NCBI GenBank assembly: GCA_949751835.1
Contig: CATKHK010000034.1
Span: 1-64,000 of the forward strand
Origin: Blepharisma japonicum
Lineage: Eukaryota > Ciliophora > Heterotrichea > Heterotrichida > Blepharismidae
DNA: 64,000 nucleotides
Direction of reading: 5' to 3'
Under the pieces are notes generated by a model. It did not search any database and was not told the origin of the DNA. It worked only from the letters and a program-made list of their open reading frames with translations. Of the stretch, positions 11,799 through 48,777 are shown one piece after another (within the stretch, counting starts at the first letter, position 1; the number at the start of each line of letters is the position of its first letter). The translations under genes were made by a program, and so were the position numbers.

Positions 11799-14382
11799 TT
11801 ACTCCAAACTTGCTATCAGGCTACTGATAGTTTCAATGTCAAGCTCTGCTAGATTATAGCCGATTTGCTCTAGTTTCATACAGTAGTCAATAACCTTTGA
11901 AAAGCAAAGATTGGTAATAATGCTTATGTCTTTCAACAAACTTGGGTTGTTCAATAAGTAGCATTTATATTTTAATTCTTTTATATAAAAAACATTGCAT
12001 TCACTAGACTTATAATTTTTTGGTTCTATTATTTTTGAAGCAGTAACTTCCACTAAATGATTGGCAATTTCTTTTGGATCTAAATTATTTAGATTTTGAT
12101 CATACATGATTGAATAGAGTATCTTTAAAGCATCAATACAACCTAAAATAAATGATTCATGCTGACTTGAACTGCTTTCAGTAAAAAAACTTTTCAATTA
12201 TTCATAACTCCTTCTTTTATCCAATAATCGACCTCAGAATTATTTCTACAGTCTTTGATTTTAATTTCGTTTCTTAAAGTGACAGTCTCTGCTATTTGTA
12301 TAATAACATTTCTAATTCACTGGAATTTCTAGAAGTTTTTTTGCATACTTTTTAATATTATCAGTTGTTATTTTTTCTGCGTTTTTAGTGGAGACGTTAC
12401 TAAGCAATTTTCTCTCAGCTGAGGTTAGCTTCATTATTTGATAATAAAGTTTGAATCTGGTGAATCTATAACAATATCTGTATTATAAATTTTTTCAACC
12501 TCCGAGCGAGCGTATTGAAGTTTTCTAAAACGAGTATTATAGTATCACATTAATGAAAGATTTCTTTCTATTTTAGGGTTTATCTCAGGAATTGATTCTG
12601 CTGTGTATCTATTTAGAGTTTGTTTCAATGTTTCAATTTTTTCATTTTAAAATCATCAAATTCATTTTCTATTCATCAAATTTCTTGAAGTGGCTCTCTG
12701 TTGCTAAATGCAAATCTATGATATTAGCAAATTTCCCCCCAATTTTTGCAAACTTTTCTAGAGTACTTAACTCTTGATCAATGATCATGTTATTAAATTC
12801 TCGGTTGCCTTGAGCAGCATCCTTTAGTCTTTGAAGTTCCTCTCCAAAATTTTTTACAATTCCATATAGCTGAAAAAATTTTAGTTACTGTTCTATAGCA
12901 TCATTACTCATTTTAATGCCAAAATGATAATTAAAACCTTTAAAATTATAAGAATGGTTGATTTCTTCATTGTTTTCTTGCAGAGATTACAATCTTGATT
13001 AAAGTCCTGTAAAGCCTCTAATTCTTTTCCTCGCTCATTATACGCTCTTGCTCGACGCAAGCAATTATCAGATCGAAGTTTGATAGCTTTATTGAAACAC
13101 TCCTCTGCCTTAGTTCTTCGGCCTAAGCCAATAAATACAAGCCTTTAAAAGAGTATCCTATATCGTTATCTGGCTGAATTTCAATTGATGTGCTAACGCA
13201 TTTAATTGCATCTGCTAAATTTTTTAAATTCGCAGACATTAAATCTTTATTGAAATAAGCTGAAGCAAGATCGGGTTGTAATTTAATAGCTATATCAAAG
13301 CAATCTGCAGCTTCAGGATATCTGCCTAAATGTCTAAGAGATTCACCTTTGCCATCATAAGCATCAGCTTCATTAGGGTTTATTTCGATAGCCTTATCAT
13401 AATACTTAATTGCTTCAATGTCATTCCTTAAATACATAAAAACATCGCCTTTCCTTAAGTATGCTTCAGCTAAGTTGGATTGGATTTCAATAGCTTGATC
13501 ACAGCATTCTATTGCTTCAGTATATCTACCTATGCTAATAAAGCAATCAGCTTTAATGCAATAAGATTCTGCTCAATCAGGTTTGATTTTAATAGCATTG
13601 CTACAACATTCAATTGCCTCACGATTTCTGTACAAAGCATTAAGAGCGGATCCTTTATAGGAGTAGACCTCACAATAATCAGGCTTGAGTTTTATTGCTT
13701 CATTAAAATTTTCTATTGCTTCAAGAATTATTCAATAACTATTTCTAGTTTCAGTCTCATTGTATTTGAGTTCTTTATAAAGCTCTACAATTTCTTTCTT
13801 TCTATTTATACTCAAAAGAGCAGTACCCTTACCGCAATATGCTTCAGCAAGATCAGGCTTAAGCTTTATTGCTTCATCGAAGTATTCTAATGCTTCAATG
13901 TATTTTTCTGAATTAACAAGAGCAGAACTTATATTGAGGTAAGCCTCAGAAAAATTAGGCTGCAACTTTATTGCCTTTTTCCAGCATCTTATTGCCTTTT
14001 TATTTTTACCTAAATTCTTAAGAGCTGACCCTTTATTATTGTAAGCATGCATATTGTCTGGCTCCAGTTTGATTACTTCCTCATAGCGCTCTACTGCCTC
14101 AATTGTTCTACCTAAGGTATAAAGAGTCATGCCCTTGTTAATGTAGGCATCAGCATCACCAGGATTTAATTTGATTACAATCTCATAGCATTCTATTGCT
14201 TCAAGATCTCTTTGAAAAGAATTAAGAGCAATGGATTTACTTTTGTAGGCTGTAGCATCATCAGGTTTTAGTTTAATTGCTTCTTCGTAGCATTTTATTG
14301 CCTTTCTTAATTTATCTTTTTCCTGAAACCTTTCGCCTTTTTCAAGCCAACTCATATAATCTCTAGACAACTTGCCAGCCAT
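11799..14382 (-). pseudogene. Family B TPR pseudogene, near twin of 31662-33962
   Basis: Starts MAGKLSRDYMSWLEKGERF and carries about 13 TPR units (pattern EAIKCYEEAIKLKPDDATAY) followed by the coiled-coil and C-terminal region of the family, ending KLEQIGYNLAELDIETISSL. Compared with its twin it has several breaks: a one-base loss near 13125 that brings TAG into frame after KGLYLLA, a TAA replacing Leu in AIEQLLKF (near 12890), and a frameshift near 12330 in the region matching LLRILNINSSE. The last ~130 codons (from 12197) are again open. The shared flanks show it arose with the twin by duplication of a block of about 3.8 kb. Confidence 0.85.
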
Positions 14383-14564
14383 TATATTTTATCTACCTAT
14401 AATTTTGAATTAAAATTCAGATTATTATGCAAGCTCTTATTTAGGTTTAAAATGTTAAACGATCTTTAAAAGTTTTATAGTTTGCTAAATGATATTTGAA
14501 AATACTATCACTTAATCTTAATATATTATTCAAGACGCTGCTTATAAAATTGAGTGTCATGAAT

Positions 14565-14655: not shown

Positions 14656-14794
14656 ATGCACTTTTTGAACTAATAAATTTTGTTGGGATAATTATTCAAA
14701 TTTATTATATTTTAATTTAGATAATTAATTAAAGTAATTGTAGTGGCTAAGCTTAAAACAAATTTATTCATAAGATAAAATGCTTTTAGCCTCA

Positions 14795-15255
14795 AGATCT
14801 AGTAAGTGATATCCAATTTACCCTATTTATATACGATAGTCAATGGCTTTTGAAAAATAAAAGTTGGTAGTCGTGCTTATTAAGTCTTTATAAGACCTTT
14901 ATAAGTGTAAGTAAGATTGATATCGTTAATATTAATTAAGATTATTTATAAGCTTTCTGTTAACTGGAGAATATCGTGCCTAACTTTCTCTAAGAGTATT
15001 GCACCTTTAGATGTGTCAGTCCCTTCAGAGGGAGTGCAATTAAAGAAGTAGATTCCAGGATATCTATGTATTTAGCGCTTTAGATTTACCCAGAGGTCAT
15101 TGCCCTTGCCGAAATCCACAAAATTCAGCTAAAATTATAAACTAAAAACTATTTTAAATTTATCAAGATCCATATTACTGTGTAAGCTAGCATTTACAGG
15201 AACAGAAGGACGAGATGGCTTTTGAGGATATTAATCTAGATGCTAGATAATAATA
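14795..15255. repeat. Direct repeat R copy 2, 5' flank of TPR pseudogene
   Basis: Same order of landmarks as the copy at 11180, but more diverged from it than from 34195-34670, which occupies the matching place upstream of the twin TPR gene. The R copies therefore pair by position: the two 3' flanks match each other best and the two 5' flanks match each other best. Confidence 0.7.
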
Positions 15256-16611: not shown

Positions 16612-19470
16612 TTACTCCAAACTTGCAATCAGGTTACCAATAGTTTCAATGTCAAGCTCTTGCAAGTTGTAGCCAATTTGCTCAAGCTTTATGCTAGAGT
16701 CAATTACTTTAGATAAAGAAAGATTGGTAATTGAACTTAAGTTTTTAAGTAAGCTTGGTTTGTTCAATATCTCGAATTTATATTTTATATTTGTGGATAG
16801 AAAAACATTACAACACTCACAGCACTTAGAGTTTGCTAACTTTATTTTGGAAGCAGTTACTGCAACTAAGTGATTAATAATTTCTTCTGGTTTTAAATTT
16901 CTTAGATTTGAATCATACAGAGTTGCGTATAGTATCTTTAGACTATCAATACAACCTAAAATTTCAGGCCTGCTTTGATTTAGATTGCTTTCTAAATTTT
17001 CTATAAAAAAATCTTTGAACTTATTTATTAAGCCTTTTTTTATCCAATAATTTACCTCAGAATTATTTTCAATTTCTTCTATTTTTCTTTTGTTACTTAG
17101 GGTGGCAGTCTCTGCTATGGTTCTAATTACACTTTTTAAATTGTTAATATTTATATTCAAAGTGTTAATAAGCTTTTCTGCATGCTTTTTAATAGAATAA
17201 GCAGCTATTTTTTCTGCTTTCCCAGTGGAAGAATTGCTAAGCAGCATTCTCACTTTTGAAGGTAGACTTATTACTTTGGAAATAATAAATTCTCTTAAAT
17301 TTTCTGCATCTAGAAGAATATTTTCATCTATACAAATTGTTTGAGCAATTTCAAAATCATCATAAAGTCTACTAAATAGAGCTTCAAAGTATCTTTTAAA
17401 TTTATTATTTTCTTCTATTTTAGAGTTTATCTTAAAATCATTAGGCTCTAATTCGTCTTCATTCTCATTTTGCTGAAAAGATGATCAGAGAAGAGCTATT
17501 TTTTCAATCGCATTTTTATTAAAATCAGAAGATTGTTTTTCAAGTTCCTGAATATTTTCCTGCATTCCTTTTCTTAATTCCTCATGCTTAAATCCTAGGT
17601 TGTGTACTGTATTTGCAAGAATTTTTAAATGCTGCTCTTTAATTTCTAGCTCTTGATTTTCAATCAATTCCATCAATTCTTGGTTTTCTAAAGCTGTATT
17701 TTTGAGTCTCTCAAATTCATCTTTAAATTGAATTACACTTTCCTGTAACTGGATAAGCTTTTGAAGTAATACAAAAATATCTTTTCTTAGCTCGTGGCTA
17801 AGTCAGCTAAATAAGGCTTCACAATTGAGCAAAATAGTGTTGGCTTCAACTTTTGGATGTTCTGAAATTAAATCATAAGCTATGTTGAAGTCCTGTAAAG
17901 CTTCAAATTCTTGTCCTAGCTCATTTAATATTACAGCTCGAAAAAAGAAAAACAAAGGATAATTAGGTTCAAGTTTGATGGCTCGATTGTAGCATTCTAG
18001 AGCTTCAGAGCTTTTATCTAAAATCCAAAGAGCGCTTCCTTTACAATGATAAGCTGTGGAGAGATGAGGCTGAATTTCAATAGCTTTGTTTCCACATTCT
18101 ATTGCTTGATCATTTTGGCCTAAGCTAATAAGAGCTAAGCCTTTGTTACAATAAGCTAAAGCGAGATCAGGTTTAATTGTAATAGCTTGATTGTAGCATT
18201 CTATTGCTTCAGTCGTCTTGTCTAAATTCATAAGAACATCACCTTTATTCAAATAAACTTCAGCACAATTAGGTTGGAGTTTAATTGATTCATTACAATA
18301 TTCTACTGCGTCAAGATATTTGTCTAAAGTATTAAGATGCAAATCTGTATTATTGTTAGCTTCAATATTATTAGATTTCAGTTTAGCAGCTCAGTTAAAA
18401 TATTCTGCTGCTTCATAGTTTCTGCTTGAATTCATAAGATATGCTCCGAAATTTTTAGAGCAAGCATCAGCTAGAATATTAGGATTGAGTTGCATTGTTT
18501 TGTAGAGCCACTCCATTCCTTCAACATTTCTGCCTAAAGTTATTAAAGCACCAGATTTAATAGAGTATGAATTAAATAGACCAGGATCAATCTCAATTGC
18601 TTTGTCACAACATTTTATTGCTTCAAGGCTTTTGCCTATTCTTAATAGAGCTGAACCTTTACCAGCATAAGCCGTAGCTAGATTGGGTTTGAGTCTGATT
18701 GCTTCATTTATTTTGCCTAAATTCTCAAGAGCAGAACCTTTGTTACTGTAAGCCTCAGCTAGACTAGGATTGAGTTCAATTGCTTTGTTAAAACATTCTA
18801 CTGCTTCAATATTTCTTTCTAAATCTAATAAAGCTGAACCTTTTAAACAGTAATCCTGAGCTTGATTAGGCTCTAATTTAATTGCTTCGTTTAAATATTC
18901 TATTGCTTCAGCACATCGGTTCAAATTTATAAGAGCGGAACCTATATTTAAGTAAGCCCCAGCTAAATCAGGCTTGAGCTCTATTGCTTTGCTGTAGAAT
19001 TCTATTGCTTCAGCATTTTTACCTAGATTAACAAGAGCAGCTCCTTTATTCAAATAAGCTTCAGCTATCATTGGATCAAGCTTAATTGCTTCATCAAAAT
19101 ACTCAATACTTTCACGATTTCTGGATAAATTTAAAAGAGCGGAGCCTTTATTTATGTACGCTTTAGCTAAATCAGGTTTGAGTTTAATTGCTTCATTACA
19201 GCATTCAATTGCTTCAATATATCGACCTAAATCAAACAGAGCTCCAGCTTTATTAGAGTAAGCTTCAGCCAAATCAGGGTAGCATTTTATTGTTTCATTG
19301 CAGAATTCTAATGTTTTTTGACTATTTTTTAAAGCACTGAAACAAATAGTCGCTTTAGTTCTAATCTCTTTATTGTCAAGTTTTAATTCTAATGCTCTTA
19401 AAAAGCAATCTAATGCTTCTTTGTACTTTCCTGACTCAAAAAGAATTAAGCCTTTATTGCTGTAGGCCAT
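16612..19470 (-). CDS. Family B TPR protein, probably 5' truncated
   Basis: Open from an ATG at 19470 (MAYSNKGLILFESGKYKEAL) to TAA 16612, 952 residues with TGA as Trp. About 15 TPR units fill the first ~530 residues, then a helical, Glu/Lys-rich stretch (LIQLQESVIQFKDEFERL) and the family C-terminal region with the Cys cluster KCCECCNVF and the end IGYNLQELDIETIGNL. The same frame continues upstream to about 19868 with three more TPR units but no ATG, and the usual start (LSRDYxxWLEKGE) is absent. The homology stops where the 3' flank of the receptor gene at 19905 begins, so the original 5' end was probably lost. TPR arrays bind proteins; no partner can be named. Confidence 0.7.
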
Positions 19471-19904
19471 AGCAAAATCAGGGAAAATGTTAATTGCATT
19501 GGTGTAGTATTCTATTGCTTCAAATTGTAATCCTACTGAATTATAAGTTTCAGCATTTTTATAAAATTTATCGGCTAAATTAGGCTCAAGTTGAATTGCT
19601 TTATTATAGCATTCTGTTGCTTCAAAATTTCTACCAATATCAGTAAGAAGAAAGCATTTATAATAGTAAAGATCAGAAAGATTAGGCTTTAATGCGATTG
19701 ATTCATCTAAACAGTTAATTGCATCTTCAATTCTACCTATAGCTTTAAGAGAATTAGCTTTAGCAACATAAGCATCAATGAAATCAGGCTTTAGTTTTAT
19801 ATTAAGCCTATGGTTAAACCATGATCTTTTACATGATAATAAAGCTTACAAAATACTGATTATTTTTTAATATTAATATAAAATCGTAAAATCAAATTAA
19901 TTAT

Positions 19905-23378: not shown

Positions 23379-23519
23379 TTTTGTATTAGGTTTATCTCTA
23401 TCAGAAACTTTATTTTTAATAATTTTATTTAAAAGAGTATTAACTTATATTGATGAAATGAAAATAAATAGTCTCCATGGTGTCTGGAAGCAATGTCAGA
23501 CTTTATGTCATTATTAATA

Positions 23520-24460: not shown

Positions 24461-24469
24461 ACCAAAGCT

Positions 24470-25080
24470 TATTAAAGGCTGCCAATAGTTTCAGCATCAA
24501 GCTCGAGCAAATTATAGCCAATTTACTCTAGCTTTATACCAAAATCAATTACTTTGGAAATAGAAAAGATATTAATAGTGCTTAATTCTTTTAGCAATTT
24601 TGTCTACTCAATTAAATAAAATATTAGTGCATTAACAACTACTCTTTCCTTCTATATCAGAAACATTTACTGCTACTAATTGATTGATGATTTATCCTGG
24701 ACTTACATTATTTAGGTTTTAATCATATATTATAGCGTAAATTATTTAGGGTGCCAAGCAGCCTAAAATTTTGGGCCTACTTTGATTTTGATCTCATTCT
24801 GAGTTTCCTGTAAAAAATTTTGTATTTCTTCACATATTTTTTAGTATCAAATATTTGATCACAGAATTTTTATCACGAGCTTCGATTTTAATGTTTTTAT
24901 TAAAAGTGAAAGTCTCTACTATTGTTCTAATTAAACTTTCTAACAAATTAGAATTTATGCTCAGAGCGCTTATAAGTTTTTCTGATAGTTTTTTAATATT
25001 ATCAGCAGATATTATTTCTGCCTTTCCAATTGGGAGCTGCTAAGCAGTTTTCACACATTTTGAGTTAGGCATTTTATCGA
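24470..25080 (-). pseudogene. Decayed family B C-terminal region
   Basis: The minus strand matches the last ~200 residues of the TPR family: the KVIDFGIKLE and IGYNLLELDAETIGSL end near 24470-24560, the CIDALKI-like and NLNN segments near 24690-24790, and the AEKLISALSINS-like helix near 24940-25020. Stops and frameshifts occur throughout. No TPR array remains upstream. Confidence 0.7.
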
Positions 25081-25588: not shown

Positions 25589-28500
25589 TTACTCTAAACT
25601 TATCATCAGGCTACCAATAGTTTCATCGTCAAGCTCTAATAAATTATAGCCAATTTGCTCTAATTTCATACAACAGTCAATAACTTTTGAAGAAGAAAGA
25701 CTTGTAATGGTGCATAACTCTTTCAGTAGGCTTGGCTTATTCAGTAAGCAGCATTTATATTTTATTTCTTTTATATAAAAAACATTGCAGCACTTACAAC
25801 ACTTAGAATTTTTTATTTCTATTTCTGAAGAAGTCACTGCCACTAACTGATTGACAATTTCTCTTGGATTTAGATTATTTAGATTTTGATCATACATAAT
25901 TGAATAGAATATCTTTAAAGCATCAATACAACCTAAAATTTCTGGCTTGTTTTGATTTGGACTGTTTCCTATGTTTTCAATAAAAAAACCTTTACATTTA
26001 TTTATAAGTCCTTTTCTTATCCAATACTCGACCTCAAAATTATTTTCACAGGCTTCGATTTTAGTTTTGTTTCTTAAAGTGGCAGCCTCTGCTATTGATT
26101 TAATTACACTTTCTGGTTCATTTGAATTTATAATCAAAATGTTTAGAATCTTTTCTGCATGCTTTTTAATATTATCACTTGTTATTTTTTCTATCTCTTG
26201 AGTGGAGATGTTACTAAGCAATTTTCTCACATCTGGAGTTAGCCTCATTATTTTGATAATAATGCTTGAATTTGATGCATCTATAGAAGTAACTATACCT
26301 GCATAAAGTGTTTCAGTCTCCAAGTGAGCATCGTGAAGTCTTTTAAACAGAACTTCATAGTATCTTTTTAATATATTATCTCTCTCTATTTCAGGGTTTA
26401 CCACAAATCTTAATTCTATTTGATCTCTATTTGTATTTTGCTGTAATCATGATCAGAGAAGAGCAATTTTTTCAGTAGCCTCATTTTTAAAATCATCAAA
26501 TTCAATTTCTAATTGCCGAATATCTTGCTGCGGTTCTTTGCTAAATTGATAGTATTGTGAGTCTAAACTATCAACTGATTTTGCAACGATTTTTGAATAC
26601 TGTGCTTTAATTGCTACCCCTTGATCCATAATCATATTCAAAAATTCAGGGTTTCCTTGAGAAGCATTATTTAGTCTCTGAAATTCATCTTTAAATCCAA
26701 CTACGATTTCATGCAGCTGAATAAGTTTTTGTAGCTGCTCAATAAGATTATTGCTTATATTTTTGTTATAAACATAATTATAACCTTCAAAAACTCCAGG
26801 ATCGCTGATTTCATTTGCTTGGATTTTTTGCATTAGATCATAAGCTTGATGAAAGTCCTGTAAAGCTTCTACTTCTTGTCAAAGCTCATTTAACGCTCTC
26901 GCTCGAAAGCAAAAATGCAAACAATTATATGGTTGAAGTTGGATGGCTTCATTGAAACATTCTATTGCTTCAGTATTTTTGCCCAATTTTATAAGAGAAG
27001 CTCCTTTATATGCGTGTGTTATATCGATATCTGGTTGAATTTCAATAGACTCGTCGAAACATTTTATTGCTTTGCTATACTTGCCTAATTTCATAAGTGC
27101 TAAACCTTTATTGCAATAAGCTGAAGCATGATCAGGTTGCATTTTAATAGCTTTGTCAAAACATTTTATTGCTTCATTATATTTGTCTAAATTTCCAAGA
27201 GCGCTACCTTTACTATTATAAACATCAGCTTCATAAGGGTTTATTTCGATAGCCTTATCATAACACTCAATTGCTTTAGCTTCATTTTTTAAATATATAA
27301 AAGCATCACCTTTCCTTAAATATGCTTCAAATAAATCAGATTGAATGTCAATAGCTTTATTACAACATTCTATTGCTTCAGTATATCCACCTATATTAAT
27401 AAGAAAATCAGCTTTATCGCAGTAGGTTTGTGCTTGATCAGGTTTAATTTTGATAGCATTGTCGTAGCATTCTATAGCCTCAAGATTTTTGCCTAAAGCA
27501 TTAAGAGCAGAACCTTTATCAGAGTAAGCGTCATAATAGTCAGGCTTGAATTTTATTGCTTCATTAAAGCATTCTATGGCTTCAAGATTTACCTCTCTAT
27601 TCAGGTCTTTATTATCGCTAGTTTCAATCTCATTATTTTTGAGTTCCTTATAAAGTTCTATTGTTTTTACATTTCTGCTTATACACATAAGAGCAGCACC
27701 TTTATTATAGTAAGCCTCAGCAAGGTCAGGCTTAAGCTTGATTGCTTCATCGCAATATTCTAATGCTTCAATGTATTTATCTAAATCAATAAGAGCAGCA
27801 CTAATATTAAGGTAGGCCTGAGCATAATGAGGCTGCAACTTGATTGCTTTTTTACAAGATTTTATTGCATCATCATTTCTACCTAAATGCAGAAAAGCTA
27901 ATCCTTTATTACAGTAAGCTTCAGGTAGATCAGGTTTAAGATTGGCTGCTTTGGTAAATAATTCTATTGCTTCAGTGTCTCTTTTTAAATTTATCAGAGC
28001 AACACCTGTATTGCAGTAAGCTTCAGCATGATAAGGCTTTATCTTGATTGCTTTTTCAAAAGATTTTATTGCTTCAGCGTCGCTGCCTAAATTCATAAGA
28101 GCTAAGCCTTTTCTATAGTGAGCTTCAGGTATGTCAGGCTGGATTTTAATAGCCTCATTACAGTATTCTATTGCTTCAAGATTTTTTCCACACATAATAA
28201 GATGAGCAGCTTTATCACAATAAGTCAGCGCTAGATCAGGCTGGATTTTGACAGCTTCTTTGTAGCATTCTGTTCCTTCGTCAGTTTTGCCTAAATTCAT
28301 CAGAGCGCTACCTTTATTATGTAGAGCTTTAGCCAGATTAGGATTTATTCTGATTGCTTTGTCGCAATATTCTATTGCTTCAGTGTTTCTGCCTAGCTTT
28401 ACTAGGGCAACACCTTTATTTGCATATGCTTCAGCGAAATGAGGCTGGATTTTGATAGCTTCATCATAGCATGTTGTTGCTTCAATATTTTTGCCTAAAG

Positions 28501-29683
28501 TATCAAGAACTAAGCCTTTATTACAATAAGCGCCAGCATCACCAGGTTTTAATTTGATCGCTTCGTCACAGCAATCTATTGCTTCAAGATATCTGCCTAA
28601 AGCTTTTAGCGCAACAGCTTTATTACAGTAAGCTTCTGCAAAACCAGGGTAAAGTTTTATAGTTTCATCAAAAAAATCAATTGCTTCCTGATTTTTGTCT
28701 AAAGCACAAAGGCAAGCTATTATATTACTTCTAATTTCTTTTTCATCAAGATTAAGCTCTAATGCTCTATATCAGCAATCTAATGCTTCTTGGTATTTTT
28801 CTAACTCATAAAGTGCGTCGGCTTTATTGCTATAAGCATTAGCGAAATCAGGCAAAATGTTGATTGCTTCATTGTAGCTTTCTATTGCTTCCTGGTATTT
28901 TCTCAAGGCATAAAGAGCTGAGCCTTTATCATGATAAGCATTTGCTAGATTATCTTGAAGCTTAGCTGCTTGATTGTAGAGTTCTTGAGCTTCAATACTT
29001 TTGCCTATATCAGTAAGTGCATCGCCATTATTTCTATATGAAAGAATTTCATCAGTTATGAGTTCGATTGTTTTATTATGGCATTTTATTGCTCTATTAT
29101 ATTTGCCTAAACTATAAAGAGCTATGCCTTTATTAACATAAGCATCAGCATCATCAGGATTAAGCTTTATTGCCTTACCAAAGCATTTTACTGCGTCAGC
29201 ATTTTTACCTAGACTTGCAAGAACAAAACCTTTATTGCAGTAGGCAAAAGGATCATCAGGCTCTCGCTCAATTGCCTTATCATAGAATTCTATTGCTTCA
29301 TCTTTTCTGCCTAATTCTTCAAGGGCATTGGCTATATTATTGTAAGGATGCGCATTGTCTGGCTCGAGTTTTATTGCTTCTTCATAGCAATTTATTGCTT
29401 CAATTATTTTACCTAAGCCATGAAGAGTAGCACCTTTGTTAATATGAGCATCAGCATCATTAGGATTTAATTTGATTATTTGATCATAACATTCTAGTGC
29501 TTCAAGATCTCTTTGTAAAGAACTAAGAGCAGCGGCTTTATTATTGTATGCTGTAGCATCATCAGGTTTTAGTCTGATTGCTTCTTCATAGCATTCTATT
29601 GCCTCGCTTAATTTATCTTCTACTTCAAATTCTTCGCCTTTTTCGAGCCAATTCAGATAGTCTCTAGACAAATTGTGATCCAT
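25589..29683 (-). CDS. Family B giant TPR protein, intact
   Basis: 1364 residues from ATG 29683 (MDHNLSRDYLNWLEKGEEF) to TAA 25589 without a break when TGA is Trp. The first ~930 residues are about 27 consecutive TPR units of 34 residues (typical unit EAIECYNEAIKLKPDxAEAY with NKGxAL helices). Then come ~125 residues of coiled-coil character (IEQLQKLIQLHEIVVGFKDE), the family boundary motif ALLWSWLQQ, and the conserved C-terminal region: IKKHAEKIL, LGCIDALKIFYSIMYD, the Cys cluster KCCKCCNVFYIKEIKYKCC and the end IGYNLLELDDETIGSL. The start is the conserved family start. There is no signal peptide or membrane span, so it is probably a cytosolic scaffold. Near-identical repeat units suggest ongoing repeat exchange. 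Confidence 0.85.
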
Positions 29684-29899
29684 TACACTTATATAATTAA
29701 TCTATAATTTTTAATAAATTTAATTATATGGAAAAACAAGAAAAGCCAATTGCTAATTCCAAAAGACACACAACTGTTTATGATATTAAAATAATAGGGT
29801 CGCATATTTCTTACTCTTTTCAAACCAGAGTGTAAATTCTCAGCGAGAATTTAAAATTAATGGCAGGGGTGAAATTAAAACAGGAAGCAAGGCTTTTCA

Positions 29900-31661: not shown

Positions 31662-33962
31662 TTACTCTAAACTTGCTATCAGGCTACTGATAGTTTCAAC
31701 GTCAAGCTCTGCTAGATTATAGCCGATTTGCTCTAGTTCCATACAGTAGTCAATAACCTTTGAAAAACAAAGACTGGTAATAATGCTTATGTCTTTCAGC
31801 AAGCTTGGCTCGTTCAATAAGTAACATTTATATTCTATTTTTTTTATATAAAAAACGTTGCATCCACTAGACTTAGGTTTTTTTAGTTCTATTTCTGCAG
31901 TAGTAACTGTCACAAACTGATTGGTAATTTCTTTAGGATCTAAATTATTTAGATTTTGATCATACATGATTGCATAGAGTATCTTTAAAGTATCAATACA
32001 GCCTAAAATTATTGATTCACGATGACTTGGGTTATTTTCAGTAAAAAAATCTTGTCAATTATTTATAACTCCTTCTTTTATCCAATAATCGACCTCAGGA
32101 TTATTTCTACAGTCTTTGACTTTAACTTCGTTACTTAAAGTGACGGTCTCTGCTATTTGTAAAATAAAACTTTCGAATTCACTGGAATTTATATTCAAAA
32201 TTCTTAGAAGTTTTTCTGCATACTTTTTAATATTATCAGTTTTTATTTTTTCTTTGTTTTCAGTAGTGACATTGCTAAGCAATCTTCTCTCAGCTGAGGT
32301 TAGCTTCATTATTTTCATAATAAAATTTGGATTTGATGAATCTATAACTATATCTGTACCTGTATAAATTTTTTCAGCCTCCGAGCGAGCGTCTTGAAGT
32401 TTTCTAAATAGAGTATTATGGTATCACACTAATGAAAGATTTTTTTTTATTTGAGGGTTTATCACAGGAATTGCGTATCTATTTAGATTTTGTTTCAATG
32501 TTTCAATTTTTTCATTTACTTCATTTTTAAAATCATCAAATTCATCATCTATTCGTCAGATTTCTTGATGAGGCTCTCTGCTGCTGCTAAAATGCAAATC
32601 CATGATATAAGATAATTTCCCTCCAATTTTTGCAAACTTTTCTATAATACTTGTCTCTTCATCCTTGATCATGCTCTTAAATTCCCGGTTATCTTGAGCA
32701 GCATCATTGAGTTTTTGAAGTTCCTCTCTGAAATTAATTACAATTCCCTGTAGTTGAGAAAATTTTAGTAGCTGTTCTATGGCATCACTGCTCATTTTAA
32801 GGTTAAAATGATAATTAAAACCTTTAAAAATACCAGAATGGCAGATTTCTTCATTGTTTTCTTGCATAAGATTGCAATCTTGATTAAAGTCCTGTAAAGC
32901 CTCTAATTCTTGTCCTCGTTCATTATACGCTCTTGCTCGACGCAAGCTATTATCAGATCGTAGTTTGATAGCTTTATTGAAATACTCCACTGCATCAGTG
33001 CCTTGGCCTAAGGCCATACTAACAAGTCCTTTATAAGAGTATGCCATATCATTATCTGGCTGAATTTCAATTGATGTGCTAAAGCATTTAATTGCATCTA
33101 CTAAATTTTTTAAATTCATAGACACTAAACCTTTATTGAAATAAGCTGAAGCAAGATCGGGTTGTAATTTAATAGCTATATCAAAGCAATCTGCAGCTTC
33201 AGAATATCTGCCTAAAAGTCTAAGAGACTGACCTTTACCAATATAAGCATCAGCTTCATTAGGGTTTATTTCGATAGCCTTATCATAAGATTCAATTGCT
33301 TCAATGTGATTCCTTAAATACATAAAAGCATCCCCTTTCCTTAAGTATGCTTCAGCTAAGTTGGATTGGATTTCAATAGCTTTATCACAGCATTCTATTG
33401 CTTCAGTATATCTACCTATGCTAATAAGGCAATCAGCTTTAATGCAATAAGTTTCTGCTCGATCAGGTTTGATTTTAATAGCATCGTTGCAACATTCAAT
33501 TGCCTCACGATTTCTGTGCAAAGAATAAAGAGCAGATCCTTTATAGGAGTAGACTTCATAATAATCAGGCTTGAGTTTTATTGCTTCATTAAAATTTTCT
33601 ATTGCTTCAAGAATTATTCAATAATTATCTCTTGTTTCAGTCTCATTGCGTTTGAGTTCTTTATAAAGCTCTATCGTTTCTTTCTTTCTACATATACTCA
33701 AAAGAGCAGCGCCCTTACCGCAATATGCTTCAGCAAGATCAGATTTAAGCTTTATTGCTTCATCGAAGTATTCTAGTGCTTCAAGATCTCTTTGTAAAGA
33801 ACTAAGAGCAATGGCTTTACTTTTGTAGGCTATAGCATCATCAGGTTTTAGTTTAATTGCTTCTTCATAGCACTCTATTGCCTCGCTTAATTTATCTTCT
33901 TCCTTAAACCTTTCGCCTTTTTCAAGCCAACTCATATGATCTCTAGACAAATCGTCAGCCAT
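31662..33962 (-). CDS. Family B TPR protein, intact shorter member
   Basis: 766 residues from ATG 33962 (MADDLSRDHMSWLEKGERF) to TAA 31662 with TGA as Trp. About ten TPR units occupy residues ~12-360. A helical linker follows (FSQLQGIVINFREELQKL, FDDFKNEVNEKIETLKQ), then the family C-terminal region with LGCIDTLKILYAIMYDQN, SSGCNVFYIKKIEYKCYLL and the end LEQIGYNLAELDVETISSL. The Cys cluster is reduced to SSGCN. It is the working twin of the pseudogene at 11799-14382, but with three fewer TPR units. A cytosolic scaffold role is inferred from the repeats only. Confidence 0.85.
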
Positions 33963-34194
33963 TATATTTTATCTACCGATAATTTTGAATTAAAATTCAG
34001 CTTATTATACTTTTTTAAAAATAATTTATTAGAAATTTTTCAAAGCCAGAAACCTATTTATTATTTATTATGCACCATTTTTGAATTAATAAAATTTGCT
34101 GGGATATTATTCAAATTTATTAAATTTTAATTTATATAATTGATTAAAGTAATTGTAGTGGCTAAGCTTAAAACCAATTTATTCATAAGATAAA

Positions 34195-35344: not shown

Positions 35345-36345
35345 TGAATTGCTCAATACAAATGAGTCTTATTAAAGACAGTCATTCTTCCATATCCAAA
35401 GTCATTAGAACTAAATAAATTCCATAAATGAGAGGTATTGCTTAATTCTGCATTGTGGCCTATAACGCTTCTCCATTCCCATCAATCATATAAACAGTTG
35501 CCTGTGGATTTAAATGTAAATTCGAATCATCACGCTCGCTTTGAATTGTTTGATTTTTGGTATATTGGGCCCATTCTTTCATAAGTATGTAAATGGCCAG
35601 CAAGAAACATATCAACTCCTTGCTCATAAAAAATGTCCTCAAATTTATCTCTGAAAAACCACGTATCAGCCCCACAGACAATATTTCTTTCTACACTATG
35701 TTTAAAGAAATCATATGAGCAATAGAGGGGATGATGAGTCATTACAATTATTCATGGTCTTTCATTACGGTGGGTATTTGCATCAGTTAAGTCATTTATA
35801 AGCCAAAGTCTTTGAAGATCTTCATCATCGTAAGGGTAATAATAATAATAATAATTAAAATAAATTTCTGTGTTTAAAAAACAAAGTGGGCTGGGCCAAT
35901 ATTTATGGAATAAAAAAGACCATCCGGGTCAATGCTGTTTTTCGGCATATTAAACCTCATCCGGTAATGTAGCATATTTTGGTCATTTTCATGGTTTCCG
36001 GGTAAAGTCAGTGAGCTATACTGCTCAAAGAGCATATGTGTTTTATTATACACAGTAAGTTTCCCAAATCCATAGTCATCTGTCCTATAAACACTTCACA
36101 ACTGAGGAGTATGAACAGCTTTGGCATTGTGTCTTAATCGGTTTCCACCTATTCCATCAACTATATGAACTGTTGCCCTTGGATTATTAATATTTGTATT
36201 TGCATTATCATCATCATATTGACTTTTCAAAGTGACATTATGATAAATTGGAGTTATTAATTCATATGAGTGCACAATAGCAGTAAAAAAGACATCGACA
36301 GCATTTTCATGGAATAATTCTTCGTATTCTTACCGTTTTACCTGC
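35345..36345 (-). pseudogene. Purple acid phosphatase-like metallophosphoesterase, chimeric pseudogene
   Basis: Two partial copies are joined on the minus strand. From 36340 to about 36005 there is the 3' part of one copy: NAVDVFFTAIVHSYELITPI, GGNRLRHNAKA, DDYGFGKLTVYNKTH. It runs straight into the middle of a second copy: GNHENDQN, FYSINIGPAHF, MTHHPLYCSYD, FLAGHLHTYERMGPIY. The second copy has the GNHE, H-H-P-L-Y-C-S and G-H-L-H-T-Y-E metal-site motifs of purple acid phosphatases. In the first, the G-H-x-H motif is degraded to TAIVHS. The second also has a frameshift near 35870 (before NTEIYF) and one near 35530. The N-terminal part with the first metal motifs is missing. Confidence 0.75.
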
Positions 36346-36364: not shown

Positions 36365-37560
36365 AGGATCATAGTATTAAGCAGCCAATAGATAGATTCA
36401 TCTTCAAGCTTCAACAAGTTATTGCCAATTTGCTCTATCTTATACAACAGCCAATAATTTTTGAAAAATAAGTCTGGTCATGAGTTTAAGTCTTTAAGTA
36501 AACTAGGTTTTTCAATAATTCGCATTTATATTTTATGTCTTTTAATTAAAAAATACAGCATTTGCACTTCTTTTTGATTTTTTCTCTTCTTGAGTAAAAT
36601 TAATATAAGAAGTGTTACACTCATTAATAGAGTGATAGTTTCTTTTTGATGTTTACCTCTTAGATTTGGATTATACATGATTGCATAGAGGATCTTTAGG
36701 GCATCAATACAGCCTAGAATTTCAGTCTTTCTAGATGATCATTCTCTTTCATGTTTACAATAAATAAAGATTTGTATTTATCTACAAATCCGTTATATAC
36801 CCAATATTCGATCTCATAATTATTATCGCAATCCTCTATTTTATTTTTTTTATTTGAAGTTTCAGCCTCTGAAATCATTTTTATTACACTTGTTTGCATA
36901 TTGAGATTTACATTCAAAGTGCGTAAAGAATTCCTGTACTTTTTTTAACGATTTAACAGTTATTCTTTCTGCTCTTCCATAACAGATATTACTAGCTCCT
37001 TCGTAGAATTTTTATTAATATAGCCAATACTTACTTTATTACTATTTCATTGTGTGCGATTGTTGATTTCTTCTTTTTCTTGATTTTCTTGCATCAAGTT
37101 ATAAGCTCTATTAAACCTGTAAAGCTTCGAGTTCTTGTCCTAGACTATTCAATATTCTAGCTCGATTGCGAAAAAAATAGGATTATTAGGTTGCAGATTT
37201 ATTAATTCGCTATAGCATCCTAATGCCCCAGCATTCGGCCCAAAAGAATAAGCGTTGATCCTTTATTAGCATAATTTATAGCATCATCAGGCTTTAATTT
37301 GATTATTTCATTATAGCATTTTATCACTCTAGCATGTCTACCTAACTTATTAAGAGCAATAGCTTTGTTTTAATAAGCAAGAGTATAATCAGTTTTTTTG
37401 GATTGCTTCATTAAAACACTCTAATGATTCTTCATTCCTATTTAAATTTCCAAGAACAAGGCCTTTTTTATAAGCTTGAGCATAATTAGGTTTAGATTAG
37501 GCAGGTTTCAGTATCCTATTAGATAGAAAAAGTCTTGGAATTTCATTCTTATAGAAATCT
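36365..37560 (-). pseudogene. Decayed family B TPR gene
   Basis: The minus strand shows the C-terminal region in pieces: the end matching KLEQIGNNLLKLEDESI near 36380-36440, the N-V-F and KEIKYK area near 36510-36570, and an open stretch 36714-36917 (TSVIKMISEAETSNKKNKIE). TPR units follow from about 37100 to 37490 with frameshifts in most of them. Only a few TPR units remain and no start is visible. Confidence 0.7.
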
Positions 37561-37724: not shown

Positions 37725-40700
37725 TTACTCTAAGCTTATTATAAGGCTGCCAATAGTTTCAATGTCAAGCTCCAACAATTTATATCCAATTTGCTGTAGC
37801 TTTGTAATGCAGGCAATAGTTTTAGAAAAGGGAAAATTAGTCATGGTGCTTAAGTCTTTGAGTAAACTTGGCTTGTTCAATAAATCACATTTATATTTTA
37901 TTTCTTTTATAAAGAAAACATTGCAACATTTGCACTTCTTTTTTGAGTCCTTTTTTCTTTGAGTGAATGTACAAGAAGTAATTACTGCTACTAATTGATT
38001 AATAGTTTCTTCTGGGCTTAAATCTTTTATATTTTTATTATACAGGATTGCAAAGAGTACCTTTAAAGCGTCAATGCAACTTAAAATTTCGAGTTTGCTT
38101 TGATTTCAATTTTTTTCTCTGCTGACAATAAAAAAATCTTTGCATTTATGAGTAAATCGATTTTTTATCCAATATTCTACTTCAAGATCCTTTTCACAAG
38201 CCTCTATTTTATTTTTGTTATTTAAAGTTGCAGTCTCAGCAATAATTTTAATTAAGGTTGCTTTGGCGTTTGTATTAAATCTCAAAGTACTTATAATTTT
38301 TTCTGCATGCATTTTAATAGAATAATCAGTTATTATTTCTGCTCCATTAGATTTGGAGTTACTAAGTATATTTCGCAAAGATGGTGTTTGGCTTATAACT
38401 TTGAAAATTATAAAAAAACTTAAATTTGATACATCTAAAGCAATATTCCTATCTGAATGAATTATTTCTGCCTCTTTAGCAGTATTATAAAGTCTGTTAT
38501 ATAGAACTTCAAAATAACGTTTCAATTTTTTATTTCGGTTTATTTCTGGAATTGTGTCAAGATCGTAAGTTTCTATTTCGTATTTTCTACCTTTTTGCTG
38601 TAAAGGTGGCCAAAAAGTAAAGGTTTTTTCAGGTATTTTTTTATATTCTGCAAAATCATTTTCAGATTCCTGGGTATTTTGCTGATTTTCTTTAATTCAT
38701 TCAGTATATTTAGAATCTGAGCTAACCAATCTTATGCCATTTTTAGAATGCTGAAATGTATTGTCTATTTCTTCTCCTTCAATCAATTTCAATAATTCTG
38801 GGTTTTTTGGCTCAGCATTTTTGAGCCTTTGCACATCTTCTTTAAAGTCAAAAGATGATCAAAAAATAGCAATTTTTTGATTGGCTTCTTTTCTATACTT
38901 ATCAGATTTTTTTTTAAATTTCAGAATTTTTTGCTGAATTTCTTTCTTTGATTCTTCATCTTTTGAGTTTAAGTAATCAATAGTTTTTCCAACAATTTTT
39001 GAATGCTTTGCTTTAATTTCCATCTTTTTTTCTTCAATCGATTTCATCAATTCTGGGTTTTCTGTTGCAGCACACCTGAGTTTCTGGAATTCCTCTTTAA
39101 ATTCAATTGCGATTTCCTGCATCTGGGCAAGTTGCTTGTGCAATTCCAAAAGATTTTTGCAAAATACTTCATTACTATCATCAATGTTGCCTTTATTAAG
39201 GTTTAATTGTGTGTGATTTCTAGTTCTCATTTCGTACATTTTTTGGATCAAGTAATAAGCTTTATTAAAGTCATTTAGGGCTTCTACTTCTTTTTCTAGG
39301 CAATTGAATACTCTAGCACGATTGCAGAAAAACTGAGGATTATTAGGCTGCAACTCAATTGCTCTGTCATAGCATTCTAATGCCTCAATATTCCTGTCTA
39401 AAGAAGACAGAGCATATCCTTTGTGAAAATAAGCATTAGCATCATTAGGTCGTAGCATGATTACTTTGCTATATAATTCTATTGCTTCAGCATTTCTGCC
39501 TATAGAAGAAAGAGCAGCACCTTTATTAGCGTAAGCCAGAGCATGACTAGGTTTGAGTTTGATTGCTTCCTCACAACATTCTATTGCTTCAATATTTCTG
39601 CCTAAATTCATAAGGGCTAAGCTTTTGTTATTATAAGCTTGAGCATAGTTAGGCATGAGTTCAACTGCCTGGTTATAACATTCAATTGCATCAGTATTTC
39701 TACCTAAACTCATAAGAGCCAAACCTTTGTCATTGTAACCTTGAGCATAGTTAGGTATAAGTTTAATTGCTTCGTTATGACATTCTATTGCCTCAACATT
39801 TCTGTTTAATTTTCATAGAGCTAGACCTTTATTGGAGTAAGCTTGAGTAAGATCAGGCTGAAACTTTATTGTTTCATCGCAACTTTTAATTGCCTCAGCA
39901 TATCTTCCTAAATTCAAAAGAGTGGCACCTTTATCAAAATGGACTATTGCTAAATCAGGTTGCAATTTAAGTGCTTCATCATAACATTTTATTGCTTCAG
40001 CGTTTCTGCCTAAGGCTTTAAGAGCAAAGCCTTTATTAGCATAAGACATAGCATGATCAGGTTTTAATTTGATTGCTTCATCACAGCATTCTATTGCTTC
40101 AGTATTTCTACCTAAGGCCGTGAGAGCAACACTTTTATTACAATAAGCTTCTGCATAATCAGGCTGCTGTTTAAGTGCTTCGTTGAAGCATTCTATTCCT
40201 TCAGCATTTTTCCCTAAAGAGCAAAGAGCTGCACCTTTATTACAGAAAGCTAAAGCTATATCAGGTCGGAGTTTGATGCTGCCTAAAGAAGTGAGAATAG
40301 TATTTTGTTTAGAGTTAGCTATAGCTAGATCAGGTCGGAGCTTGATTGCAAGATTGAAATATTCTATTGCCTCAGCACTTCTTCCTAGATTATTAAGAGC
40401 AGCGCCCATATTCGAATAGGCTTCGGCTAGGTCAGGCTTGAGTTTGATTGCTTCAATAAAGAATTCCATTGCTTCAAGATATCTTCCTAAAGAAGAAAGA
40501 GCTATGCCTTTATTAGCATAAGCCATAGCATATTCAGGTTTAAGCTTAATTGCTTCATTAAAATGCTCTATTGCTTCAATATTTCTCCCTAAAGCATTGA
40601 ATGCACCACCTTTATTAGAGTAAACTTCAGCTAGATCAGGTTGGAGTTTAATTGCTTGGTTATAGCATTCTATTGCTTCAAAATTTCTACTTAAATTATC

Positions 40701-42020
40701 AAGAGCTAAGCCTTTATTATTGTAAGCGAGAGCTAGATTTGGTTTTAATTTAATCGCTTCATTGTAGCATTCTAATGCTTCAACGTTTTTGCCCAAATTC
40801 ATAAGAGCTAAGCCTTTATTAGAGAGCGCTTCAGCATAATCTGGCTTTAGTCTGATTGCTTCATTATAGCACTCTATTGCTTCAACATTTCTGCCTAAAT
40901 TCTTTAGTGCTAAACCTTTATTAGAGTAAGATAGAACAAGCCTAGGATTTAATCTAATTGCTTCGTTACAATATTCTATTGCTTCTACACTTTTGCCTAA
41001 ACTTATAAAAGCTAAACCTTTATAAGAGTAAGCTTCAGCTAGATCAGGCTTGAGTTTAATTGCCCAGCTGCAACATTCTATTGCTTCAATTATTCTACCT
41101 AGATTATAAAGAGCAATACCTTTATTGCAATAAGGTCCAGCATGGTCAGGTTTTAATTTTATGGCTTCATTATAGCATTCTATTGCTTCAAGGTATCTAT
41201 TTAATTTCATAAGTATTGCGCCTTTATTAAAATAAGTCTCAGCATAGTCAGGCTTTAGTCTAATTGCTTCATTATAGCATTCTAATGCTTCAACATTTTT
41301 GTCTAAATACATAAGAGCAGCACCTTTACCATAATAAGCAGAAGCTAAACTAGGTTTTAGTTTAATAGCTTTGTCACAATATTCAATTGCTTCAAGATAT
41401 TTGTCTAAATCTACTAGAGCTAAACCTTTATTAGAATAGGCTTCTGCATAATCTGGTTTTAAATTAATTGCTTTATCACAAAGCTCTAGTGCTTCAGTAT
41501 TTCTGCTTAAAGCTCTGAGAACTGCACTTTTATTAGAGTAAGATTCAGCATCATTAGGCTTCAAATTAATTGCTTCATTAAAGCATTCAATCGCTTCAGC
41601 ATTTCTGCCAAAAAATGAAAGAGCCAACCCCTTATTAGAATATGCAGGAGCATAATCAGGCTTTAGCTTAATTGCTTTATTAAGACATTCGATTGCTTCA
41701 AGATTTCTGTCTAAATTCAAAAGAGCTCAGCCTTTACTAGAGTAAGCTTCAGCATAATCAGGTTTTATCTTTAATGCTTCGTTAAAAAACTCGATTGCTT
41801 CTTCATATTTATATAGCTCAATAAGAGCTGAGCCTTTGTAGTAGTGATATTCAGTATTATCAAGATTGAGTTTAATTATTTCATTATAACATTCTATTTC
41901 TTCATTTTTTCTATCCTCAGTATTCAGAAAATTCCCTTTATCCAATGATTCTTCAGTATTCTTAGAAACTTCATCATATACATGATCTATCTCATCGCTA
42001 AAATGCTGCTCACTAATCAT
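37725..42020 (-). CDS. Family B giant TPR protein, intact, variant N-terminus
   Basis: 1431 residues from ATG 42020 (MISEQHFSDEIDHVYDEV) to TAA 37725, open throughout with TGA as Trp. About 24 TPR units span residues ~34-865, many nearly identical at DNA level (102-bp period). Then comes a long Lys/Glu-rich helical linker (KKEIQQKILKFKKKSDKY), longer than in the other members and containing two boundary motifs (AIFWSSF and TFWPPLQQ). It ends with the family C-terminal region, which has KKKCKCCNVFFIKEIKYKCD and QQIGYKLLELDIETIGSL. The N-terminus lacks the LSRDYxxWLEKGE start of other members and is acidic instead. No signal peptide or membrane span. Function unknown beyond probable protein binding. 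Confidence 0.85.
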
Positions 42021-42202
42021 CTTTATTTAATTTATCTATATTTTCCCCTAAAGCACAGAAAATTTATTATGCATTCATTCAGCCTAAATCTAGTGCTTTT
42101 CTAATTTTATTTGTGAAATCAAAAAAATTATTTAAAACCTAATCACATACCTAAATATATTAGCCAAAGATTATAATCTTAAATAATTATACACTTTAAC
42201 GC

Positions 42203-45900: not shown

Positions 45901-46378
45901 ACTTGCAGTTGAAATTATTTTCGTCATTTATGACAAGTCCATTGTTTCAATTAAAATAATTTAAGACTGAAAAATACGCATCCATCTGAACTGACTTAGA
46001 TGGTAAAATGCTATACGTTCACTCGTCGTAATAAGAGTCATACTTACTCTCCATAACCAAATGTATTTTGTTGCTTTCTTTGCAGATCTGAGATATGCTT
46101 AGTTGAGTTTCAATGTCATCTGATAAATCAAAAATGATTAAAATGCTTGGATGCATATTAAGATGCTCTGAGATGGCTGAGTAGTTGCATTGATGTCATT
46201 CTATATCTGGCTCAAATTGGCTTTTTACTTCTTCGATTCAATTTTGGAGGTCTTTATACTTATCATTTTGAGCAATAAGAATATTCATAGAAGAAGATAA
46301 ATGTAGCATGGTCAAAAGATATCATATCTTAATAGCTCCTATGCCACTTTGCTTCATTTTTGCAGATATTTCATTCAT
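42959..46378 (-). CDS. Family A receptor-like membrane protein, intact
   Basis: 1139 residues from ATG 46378 (MNEISAKMKQSGIGAIKIWY) to TAA 42959, unbroken with TGA as Trp. Order of parts is as in 19905-23378: signal peptide, two ANF-like stretches (SILPSKSVQMDAYFSVL and GLVINDEN; then FPxxG-like VPIVGPTQT, WFTRITIS, LGWNKINVIYYND), stalk with CTGTVSIDKTSND, ~8 membrane spans and a basic tail ending IVQKTTS. It is the most diverged member seen here and lies nearest the conserved gene block. The tail is shorter than in the other copies. Ligand and signalling output are unknown. Confidence 0.85.
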
Positions 46379-47202
46379 TTTTTGTATTAGCCACTAATTA
46401 AATCTATTTTTAGTTAAAAGTTTTAAAAGATATAAATTTAAATTTTGAAAAGAATAAAATTCGTTTATTGTAATATTTTTTGGCAAATCTAATTTCACAC
46501 TTATGCCATTAATTTTTTGAGGATAAATTATATTTTTTTATCTGCCTAAGTTTAAAATTAAAGCAACGCTTCTCATCAACTATATATAAAATGCTTTATC
46601 TTTCCTATTCTCCAGAAAAAGACAGATTCTTAAAGTTGGATAAATTCCCTTAGAAACTAGAGCCTGATAGGTAAAATATAGAATTTAATTACTTGTGCAG
46701 AAGGCTACTTGGAATGATTTCCCCTTTTCATAACCTTATATGAAAGGGGAAAGATCTCCAGCATATAGAGCTATTTGATTCCAGTATACATTATAAATCA
46801 TTATGCTAGATAAATCTCAAACAATAAAAATGCTTTAACTTCAAATACCCTCAGCTAATGCATCTTAATTTTTATTGAATCTTATAGAAAGGTAGTAAGA
46901 TGCTTTAGATTTAATTACCTCTGATTGTCCATCAAACAAATTAGTATCTTTAAGAAATTCAGAGAAATAAGTTGAGTATCAACTATTTGAATTTTTCAGA
47001 TTAGAAAAAATTTTAAGATAGCTAGACAGCTCAAAAAATGTAGAAAGACGATTGGTGACTGCTTAGTTTGTTTAACTAATATTTATGTTTTTATTCTAAT
47101 TTTATTGCAAGAATATTAAATCATTATAATTAGAACAATAAATTGATATATCGAGAATATTTATTTCAATAGTTTAAAACAATTAAAAATTTTCTCTTCA
47201 AC
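46379..47202. other. Intergenic between receptor gene and superoxide dismutase
   Basis: About 820 bp, AT-rich. A plus-strand stretch near 46590-46650 (MLYLSYSPEKDRFLKLDKF) reads protein-like but is stopped at once. Apart from the hairpin at 46720-46750, I see nothing firm. Confidence 0.4.
46720..46750. repeat. Inverted repeat with ~12-nt arms
   Basis: CCCCTTTTCATA and TATGAAAGGGG face each other across about 6 bases. Such a G/C-run palindrome is unusual in this AT-rich spacer. It could be a transcript hairpin or an end of a lost element. Confidence 0.6.
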
Positions 47203-48072
47203 TTATTCCATGCTTATCATCAAGCTCCCAATCGTATCAACGTCTAAATCTATTAAGTCATAGCCAACCTCCTCCAACTTAATGCTATAATCAATGACTT
47301 TAGAAAATGAAAAGCCAGTCACAGTGCTTAAGTTTTTAAGCAATTCTGGATTACCCAGCAAGTGGCAATCATATTCTATCTCTTTTGTAAAAAAAATACT
47401 GCAGCATCCACTCTTCTTAGCAGGTCTAGAAAATGGCACTGCCTGTCCTTTTTTCGCATAATTTTCATAATTATTCACCACAGTATCCCAATTGACAATT
47501 TTCCATCAATTTTCCACAAATTCAGGCCTCCTCTGCTGATACTTTAAATAATAAGCATGCTCCCAAACATCGCAAGTCAAAATTGGGACTCCATGGATTG
47601 TCCCAATTCCATCCATAAGAGGATTTTCATGTCCAGGGGTGTTATGGACTTCAAGTGTCCCATCCTGCTTGACAGTCAAAAATGCCCAGCCAGAAGCAAA
47701 TCTATTAACAGCGGCAGCAGTGAATTGCCCCTTAAAAGCTTCAAATGAGCCAAATTTTTGATCAATTTTGGCAGCAAGTTCTCCAAAAGGAGTTGGATTT
47801 GATGATCCTACAGGACCCATATTTTGCCAAAAAAGAGTGTGATTATAGTGTCCGCCTGCATTGTTTATAACAGCAGGGCTAGTGACTGACACAACATGCT
47901 GCAAAGCAGTGAGATCTAGATTGGCTTTGTCCGGGAAATCAGCAAGTGCTGCATTTAGTTTGGTGACATAAGAATTGTGATGAGCTGTATGATGGATTTC
48001 AAGAGTTTGAGCATCCATATGAGGCTCAAGAGCTGTATAGGAGTAAGGGAGTGGAAGTAAGGTATGGACCAT
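47203..48072 (-). CDS. Fe/Mn superoxide dismutase fused to the C-terminal domain of the TPR family
   Basis: 289 residues from ATG 48072 (MVHTLLPLPYSYTALEPH); an in-frame ATG 24 nt upstream is less family-like. Residues 1-~205 are a complete superoxide dismutase, which turns superoxide into O2 and H2O2. It has the ligand segments IHHTAHHNSYV, GGHYNHTLFW and DVWEHAYYLKY, and the closing WWKIVNWDTV, whose first W is TGA. GHENPLM stands where Mn-SODs have NQDxPL. There is no evident organelle presequence, so it is probably cytosolic. Residues ~224-289 (GCCSIFFTKEIEYDCHLL to VDVDTIGSLMISM-like end) match the end of the neighbouring TPR proteins. No stop separates the two parts. A fused tail is not usual in this family. 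Confidence 0.9.
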
Positions 48073-48096
48073 TTTAATTATCAGTGAACTTATCAA

Positions 48097-48777
48097 GAGA
48101 CTAATTAAAACAGTTAGTAATGGACATCAAAAAAGTTATATGAAAAATTATAATCACATTATCTATATACATTAATTTTTTCAAAAAATAATGATTTTCA
48201 AATGGAGAGTTAAATTTTTTTGCTTCTTAAATATTATTAGCATACTTTATAAAAAATTAACAAAATATTAAAATTAGCATAAAATAATCATGCCCTCTGT
48301 ATAATCTATAATGGTTATTAAAATTAATTATAAAATAATTTTGATGCCAATTATTAACGTAAACATTAAATAATCCACCCTTTTAATAATCCATCTTTTG
48401 AATGCATCGCTTTAATAAAATTCCTATTATAAAAATAAAAAATAATTTATTGCATATACCAGGAGCCAAGATTCGATTAATCTGATGAAAAAGCTTTAAT
48501 TGATGAAAAGCTCGTTGTTAGATTAGCAAAAAACCTCATCTGGAGACAAAAATTAGCTTCATAAAACACAGCTCTTAATTGGTAGAGATATAACCTTTAG
48601 TTTTCATTTTTTATCTCGCCTGGAATCGAACAAAGTTAGAGAAAATTGTGAGCTTGTTGAAATTCTTGCAATGCTGGATGAAATTGTGATTTACCTGTCT
48701 TAATATTTGAGAATATATAAAACTAACTTGACCTCCGAATAATCATTAAAGTAAGATTTTATTAAATTCATAGAAAA
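48097..48777. other. Intergenic with a frameshifted coding-like remnant
   Basis: 48481-48564 on the plus strand reads SDEKALIDEKLVVRLAKNLI, and 48557-48703 in another frame reads RDITFSFHFLSRLESNKVRE and NCELVEILAMLDEIVIYLS before TAA. The two join with a frameshift, so this may be a dead gene or one with an unrecognised intron. The family is unknown. The rest is AT-rich. Confidence 0.35.

Follow-up and report, generated by a model that had tools for sequence, protein, structure and literature searches.

Does the minus-strand gene at 48072-47203 encode a true chimeric enzyme, in which a superoxide dismutase (SOD) runs on into the C-terminal block of a neighbouring family of TPR proteins, and, if so, what might the added tail do? 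The window analysed here is the 64,000-nucleotide stretch G000:C34:1-64000, and the genome searched comprised 45.2 Mb in 224 contigs. A sequence-only reading of the window had claimed that the SOD frame continues into the TPR-family block, and translation with genetic code table 4 (TGA = Trp) confirmed this. The frame was a single ORF of 289 codons, with ATG at 48072 and TAA at 47205-47203, in which residues 1-215 made up a complete Fe/Mn SOD and residues 216-289 the tail. Openness of this frame requires TGA as a sense codon. Only one in-frame TGA was present (47508-47506); it lies within the SOD core and aligns with TGG in both close SOD paralogues, on contigs C35 and C8, and it closes the stop-to-stop frame when table 1 is used. 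Many further long ORFs in the window likewise contain sense TGA, and 12 long frames were terminated by TAA (10) or TAG (2). In Blepharisma stoltei, TGA is read as Trp and the somatic genome is compact, with introns mostly of 15-16 bp, according to the cited part of PMC9942806, which also names developmental RNA-seq data (ERR6049461 to ERR6049485). Chance is excluded as the source of the frame joining SOD and TPR tail. A true chimeric enzyme gene is likely and, judged from its sequence, a fused protein likely exists. The features of the locus are collected in the Table.

Table. Coordinates of the fused SOD gene and of related tails in the window.
Feature	Position	Strand	Evidence
SOD core, 215 aa, complete to the final sense codon of the paralogues	47428..48072	-	Pfam and paralogue identity
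TGA read as Trp in the SOD core	47506..47508	-	TGG in paralogues; end of the table 1 frame
Joint	47418..47436	-	C35/C8 alignment, blastn, frame test, run coordinates
74-aa tail and TAA stop, homologous to the TPR-family C-terminal block	47203..47427	-	
3' flank past the tail stop, weak match to TPR genes	47149..47202	-	blastn
TPR protein, 1077-aa frame, same tail	16612..19845	-	
TPR protein, 1370-aa frame, same tail	25589..29701	-	
TPR protein, 768-aa frame, same tail	31662..33968	-	
TPR protein, 1433-aa frame, same tail	37725..42026	-	
TPR-family C-terminus, alone in a short frame; TPR-like repeats in another frame, 13123-14388	11799..12197	-	
Decayed stray tail, in-frame stops	24463..24618	-	
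Decayed stray tail, a stop and frame breaks	36379..36552	-	
Decayed stray tail fragment with stops	14776..14883	-	

Pfam analysis of the SOD core revealed PF00081 (91.9 bits, 3.6e-26) and PF02777 (131.2 bits, 1.7e-38), both above cut-off. Alignment with 29 bacterial relatives showed the motifs EIHH, GGHxNHxLFW and DVWEHAYY to be present in the core, with the three His and one Asp residues which we take to be the metal ligands of the fused SOD. The core displayed 90% amino acid identity with the C35 paralogue and 80% with the C8 paralogue. These two SODs terminate at QAVPFA and QAVPFS, respectively, precisely where the window gene continues. The dismutase had been thought to end at VNWDTVVNNYENY; the two paralogues place its true end at QAVPF(S/A), ten residues further on. 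A matching SOD C-terminal domain was found at 11 places in the genome and, when each C-terminal end was read to the first stop, the tail was present in 1 of the 11 and in none of the other 10. With our own codon model (TGA = Trp), applied to the branches of both SOD core and tail, the omega of the SOD core on the C34 branch was determined to be 0.065, and neutrality was rejected (lnL -1535.34 versus -1542.04). The SOD core is under constraint, as in a working gene.

The fused SOD shares its core domains and ligand motifs with the SodFM family (PF00081, PF02777), as described in the cited part of PMC10172142, but differs in its additional C-terminal extension and in a His in place of the usual Gln. 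This His lies in the sequence GHENPLM, found in three SODs of the genome (window 48072-47428, C35:199923 and C8:652485), where bacterial relatives mostly have NQDNPLM; the position is Gln in 24 of the 29 aligned bacterial relatives. SodFM3 and SodFM4, the groups where a His of this type is usual, are reported to be absent from the sampled eukaryotes in the cited part of PMC10172142. The nearest matches of the fused SOD were bacterial because the collection searched is bacterial. Another SOD (L003, C4:751349) has a 337-aa frame with, as judged by eye, about 90-100 additional residues in its N-terminal half.

The last ~70 of the 74 tail residues match the C-termini of the TPR proteins at 11799, 16612, 25589, 31662 and 37725 (named here by their first coordinates), with 53-60% identity over 67-71 aa. 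Similarity to all of these ends except 11799 had been noted from the letters alone, and it holds on profile comparison too. A profile built from nine TPR tails, with the SOD excluded, gave 113.4 bits (5.9e-34) for the SOD tail, as against 10.1 bits for the best among 2000 shuffles of the same tail, 1955 of which were reported. When the 10 other SODs were compared with this profile, four were reported, the best at 0.1 bits, and six remained unreported at E up to 1000.

Searches with four queries revealed the tail at a minimum of 16 places, all counts of places being lower bounds: the SOD, nine intact TPR-family ends, one truncated TPR end and five strays devoid of a protein body. A weak extra match on C18 (E 0.055 and 0.07) was kept outside the count. 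The nine intact tails comprise the five in the window, C145:13285, one on C54 and two on C13, while the shortened tail sits on a TPR gene of C85. The strays lie at 14776, 24463 and 36379 in the window, and at C145:45240 and C16:347409. The latter two are open, C145:45240 over 60 codons, with no obvious use; they may represent either recent decay or independent use. TPR repeats were detected by Pfam in all nine long carriers (25589, 37725, 16612, 31662, C145, C54, two on C13, and C85), and the complete donor block survives in the long open frames of eight TPR genes. In the fused protein itself, Pfam detected only the SOD domains; the TPR repeats and the ILGCIDALKI block that precedes the tail in the TPR proteins are missing from it. 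At a threshold of 1e-3, Pfam showed no domain in the fused SOD tail, the 11799 C-terminus or the 285-aa C-terminus of 25589, and at E up to 10 a single phage family was matched by one of six tails, at 0.54. Comparison of the tail with PDB sequences gave two weak matches, the best at 0.082 over 14 residues, and none of the 262 pattern matches in IMG/VR was confirmed. The module had been described as mobile between unrelated proteins, a wording that these sequences do not support: only one transfer, from the TPR family to a single one of the 11 SODs, is evident from these sequences, and the 15 other places are TPR ends or strays.

The joint can be placed to within about ten bases, since SOD homology stops at 47428 and homology to tail DNA starts at 47420-47418. 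The TPR proteins have a variable linker between two conserved C-terminal blocks. The SOD holds only the last of these blocks, and the position of its joint corresponds to the linker ahead of it. In two of the five window comparisons, the blastn match extended past the tail stop, by 54 bases for 37725 and by 45 bases for 16612 (identity along the full length of the matches, 67-69%). With 25589 and 31662 the match gives out ahead of the tail stop, and 11799 produced none that covers it. These alignments hint that the gained piece may have been the 3' end of a TPR gene together with some of its flank.

We lean, by a modest degree, towards a single lineage-specific chimeric gene, encoding a working SOD with a translated TPR tail that may serve as a docking module. 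An Fe/Mn SOD gene copy would have come to sit directly ahead of a TPR-family gene's 3' end, such that the whole SOD was retained and only its stop codon lost, and the final conserved TPR block (~70 aa) would thereby have turned into the SOD C-terminus. The SOD core would dismutate superoxide as usual. The tail would be translated, presumably adopts a stable fold, and may work as an interaction or localisation module that docks the enzyme where the TPR proteins sit; docking itself we rate as less likely than not.

How the two parts came together bears on a further proposal, namely that a simple local deletion joined a resident SOD to a neighbouring TPR gene. Such an event is compatible with the chimeric gene outlined above, and we consider it possible though on the unlikely side. 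The location of the fusion beside the TPR cluster was borne out, and the SOD does border the TPR/receptor array. AU tests, carried out with the remainder of the tree fixed, kept the SOD tail as sister to 16612 (0.11), 37725 (0.17), C145 (0.25) or either of two cluster-tail groups (0.15 and 0.46). However, they rejected its placement as sister to 11799 (0.003), 31662 (0.003) and 25589 (0.026), and in the best tree the SOD tail falls outside those of the cluster (ultrafast bootstrap 67). Moreover, no TPR remnant was detected by tblastn upstream of the SOD (48076-48777), and the nearest SODs are on other contigs. The sequence-only reading had taken local deletion as the simplest origin. A search of 46394-47202 for TPR or receptor remnants was also negative. 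Since the two closest SODs lie elsewhere, on contigs C35 and C8, and no tail place was found on either, the SOD may have been moved to the edge of the TPR array. On the evidence of these trees, a specific donor of the tail cannot be named.

As for selection on the tail, its branch showed an omega of 0.14, as compared to 0.27 for the rest of the tree; omega = 1 was rejected (2dlnL 7.3), and the 95% limits, obtained by interpolation, were near 0.035-0.47. When three distant tails were left out, omega of the tail branch was 0.19 (2dlnL 12.9). A model with two omegas did not improve upon that with a single one (2dlnL 1.1), and therefore the tail appears constrained to the same extent as its TPR relatives and no more. 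Over 72 aligned codons, comparison with six other cluster tails gave 11-13 differences at position 2, 21-32 at position 1 and 32-39 at position 3. The tail branch measured 0.25 amino acid substitutions per site, shorter than the tail branches of 16612, C145 and C54. In the codon model its length was 0.95, about twice that of the SOD core branch since the C35 split (0.46), though it is poorly fixed, being 0.41 at omega 0.4 and 1.86 at omega 0.05. Because the tail branch exceeds that of the SOD core, part of the low omega of the tail may predate the fusion and belong to the TPR gene.

It is this last point that lends some weight to a passenger tail. According to this alternative, the fusion is real and translated, but the SOD stop was lost recently and the enzyme now reads through into a TPR relic, with neutral or mildly harmful effect. 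Divergence of the tail may largely precede the fusion, body-less strays are common here (five places, two of them still open), and 10 of the 11 SODs manage without a tail. By our own arithmetic, a background omega of 0.27 leaves room, within the upper limit of ~0.47, for neutrality along about a quarter of the branch. However, fusion at the C34/C35 split followed by neutrality would lead to an omega of ~0.6, again by our arithmetic, which is disfavoured (2dlnL 5.1), an argument that is rough because branch length shifts with omega. In simulations with substitutions only, a neutral tail remained stop-free in about 5% of cases at 0.5 substitutions per site, and in 40% at 0.1. An open frame by itself says little about use, since two strays among the five have one as well; the omega test is uninformative for a fusion much younger than the C34/C35 split. 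We judge a passenger tail to be rather improbable, and continue to favour the chimeric gene with a candidate docking tail.

The joint itself reads CCA TTT TCT AGA CC, with a run of four T at 47433-47430. One added T converts it to CCA TTT TTC TAG, that is AVPFF followed by a stop, which is the canonical SOD length and the same as in the paralogues. The fusion therefore hinges on one base in this run, since an extra T restores the SOD stop, and loss of a base in a T run is a simple natural route for the stop to disappear. The TCTAGA at the joint contains a TA, a site that could have housed a TA-bounded element excised from the germline (MIC) sequence. Runs of four or more A/T numbered 891 in the 15 window frames of 400 aa or more (778 in 12 of those frames), a count with the caveat that frames chosen for being open cannot reveal missed sequence errors. 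Broken frames are found among the TPR and receptor genes of the window: 13123/11799, 8992/7453 and the segment 1-3943. The frame 8992-10863 is half a receptor gene, split from the other half by an in-frame TAG. That the assembly lacks one T, the SOD ending in TAG as usual and the tail being an untranslated relic, is very unlikely: the restored length is exactly that of the paralogues and the other broken frames may stem from error as well as decay, but the run is just four T, a length reached or exceeded by 891 A/T runs in the long open frames, and the tail must also have stayed stop-free in precisely one frame.

An assembly gap at the joint, a concern raised by the sequence-only reading, was dismissed, there being no N in 46600-48600. 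An intron at the joint (frame base 645) was likewise rejected, as no 15- or 16-base GT..AG stretch occurs there; within the fused frame, a 15-base stretch is present at frame base 530 and a 16-base stretch at 201. Removal of a 14-base candidate at 633 would yield a stop after 213 residues, and this candidate was also discarded.

If the chimeric gene works as proposed, its tail may be a new docking domain of lineage-specific TPR scaffolds, and the SOD would bring superoxide removal to the partner of the scaffold. We offer this fuller account tentatively, as an idea that may well prove wrong. Blepharisma, from which this genome probably comes, is a light-sensitive ciliate with pigments that generate reactive oxygen. 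Should the docking reading be true, the locus would be a natural experiment in enzyme retargeting, and the fusion could supply the first function for a domain unrecognised by Pfam. Relocation of an otherwise soluble enzyme by one domain is easily testable here, since relatives of both parents persist in the genome.

Precedents exist both for SODs extended at the C-terminus (PMC8278866) and for gene fusions that involve a SOD (PMC6332867). For PAP9/FSD2, a plant plastid Fe-SOD, the authors hypothesise that a C-terminal extension targets the plastid RNA polymerase complex, and the C-terminal 34 residues are reported as unfolded in the stand-alone protein (cited part of PMC8278866). Like the fused SOD, PAP9 has a C-terminal extension without counterpart in its paralogue (PAP4/FSD3 there; C35 and C8 here). 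In contrast to PAP9, the 74 residues of the fused SOD correspond to a block that recurs in another protein family of the same genome. By analogy, PAP9 may serve as a precedent in kind for tail-directed placement of a SOD. The ubiquitin-NiSOD fusion resembles the fused SOD in that a dismutase is joined to an unrelated module. It differs in being a nickel SOD with ubiquitin at the N-terminus, and its distribution is wide but patchy, almost exclusively among phototrophs, according to the cited part of PMC6332867. Among the open-access papers listed for SOD fusions, SOD extensions and the SODs and TPR proteins of Blepharisma, none showed a fusion of SOD with a TPR block, or such a block as a partner of SOD.

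The surroundings of the fused gene showed some features of their own. The TPR genes and large receptor-like genes occur in alternation, the latter at 42959-46393, 19905-23444, 7453-10863 and 4047-7178. An ANF_receptor ligand domain was detected in the two that were tested, at 42962-46393 (5.6e-20) and 8995-10863 (4.3e-18). The remaining receptor-like genes are alike by tblastn or by eye, with several apparent membrane spans, also by eye. Similar receptor genes adjoin the TPR tails on C145 (C145:43500-53141). Between TPR genes, at 35296-36329, lie pieces of a purple-acid-phosphatase-like gene with broken frames, for which Pfam gave PF14008 and PF00149 on 35297-35949. The first part of the window, 1-3943, holds pieces of receptor genes in opposing orientations (3-2015 minus, 2091-2672 plus and 2783-3913 minus), which suggests that they are rearranged or decaying copies.
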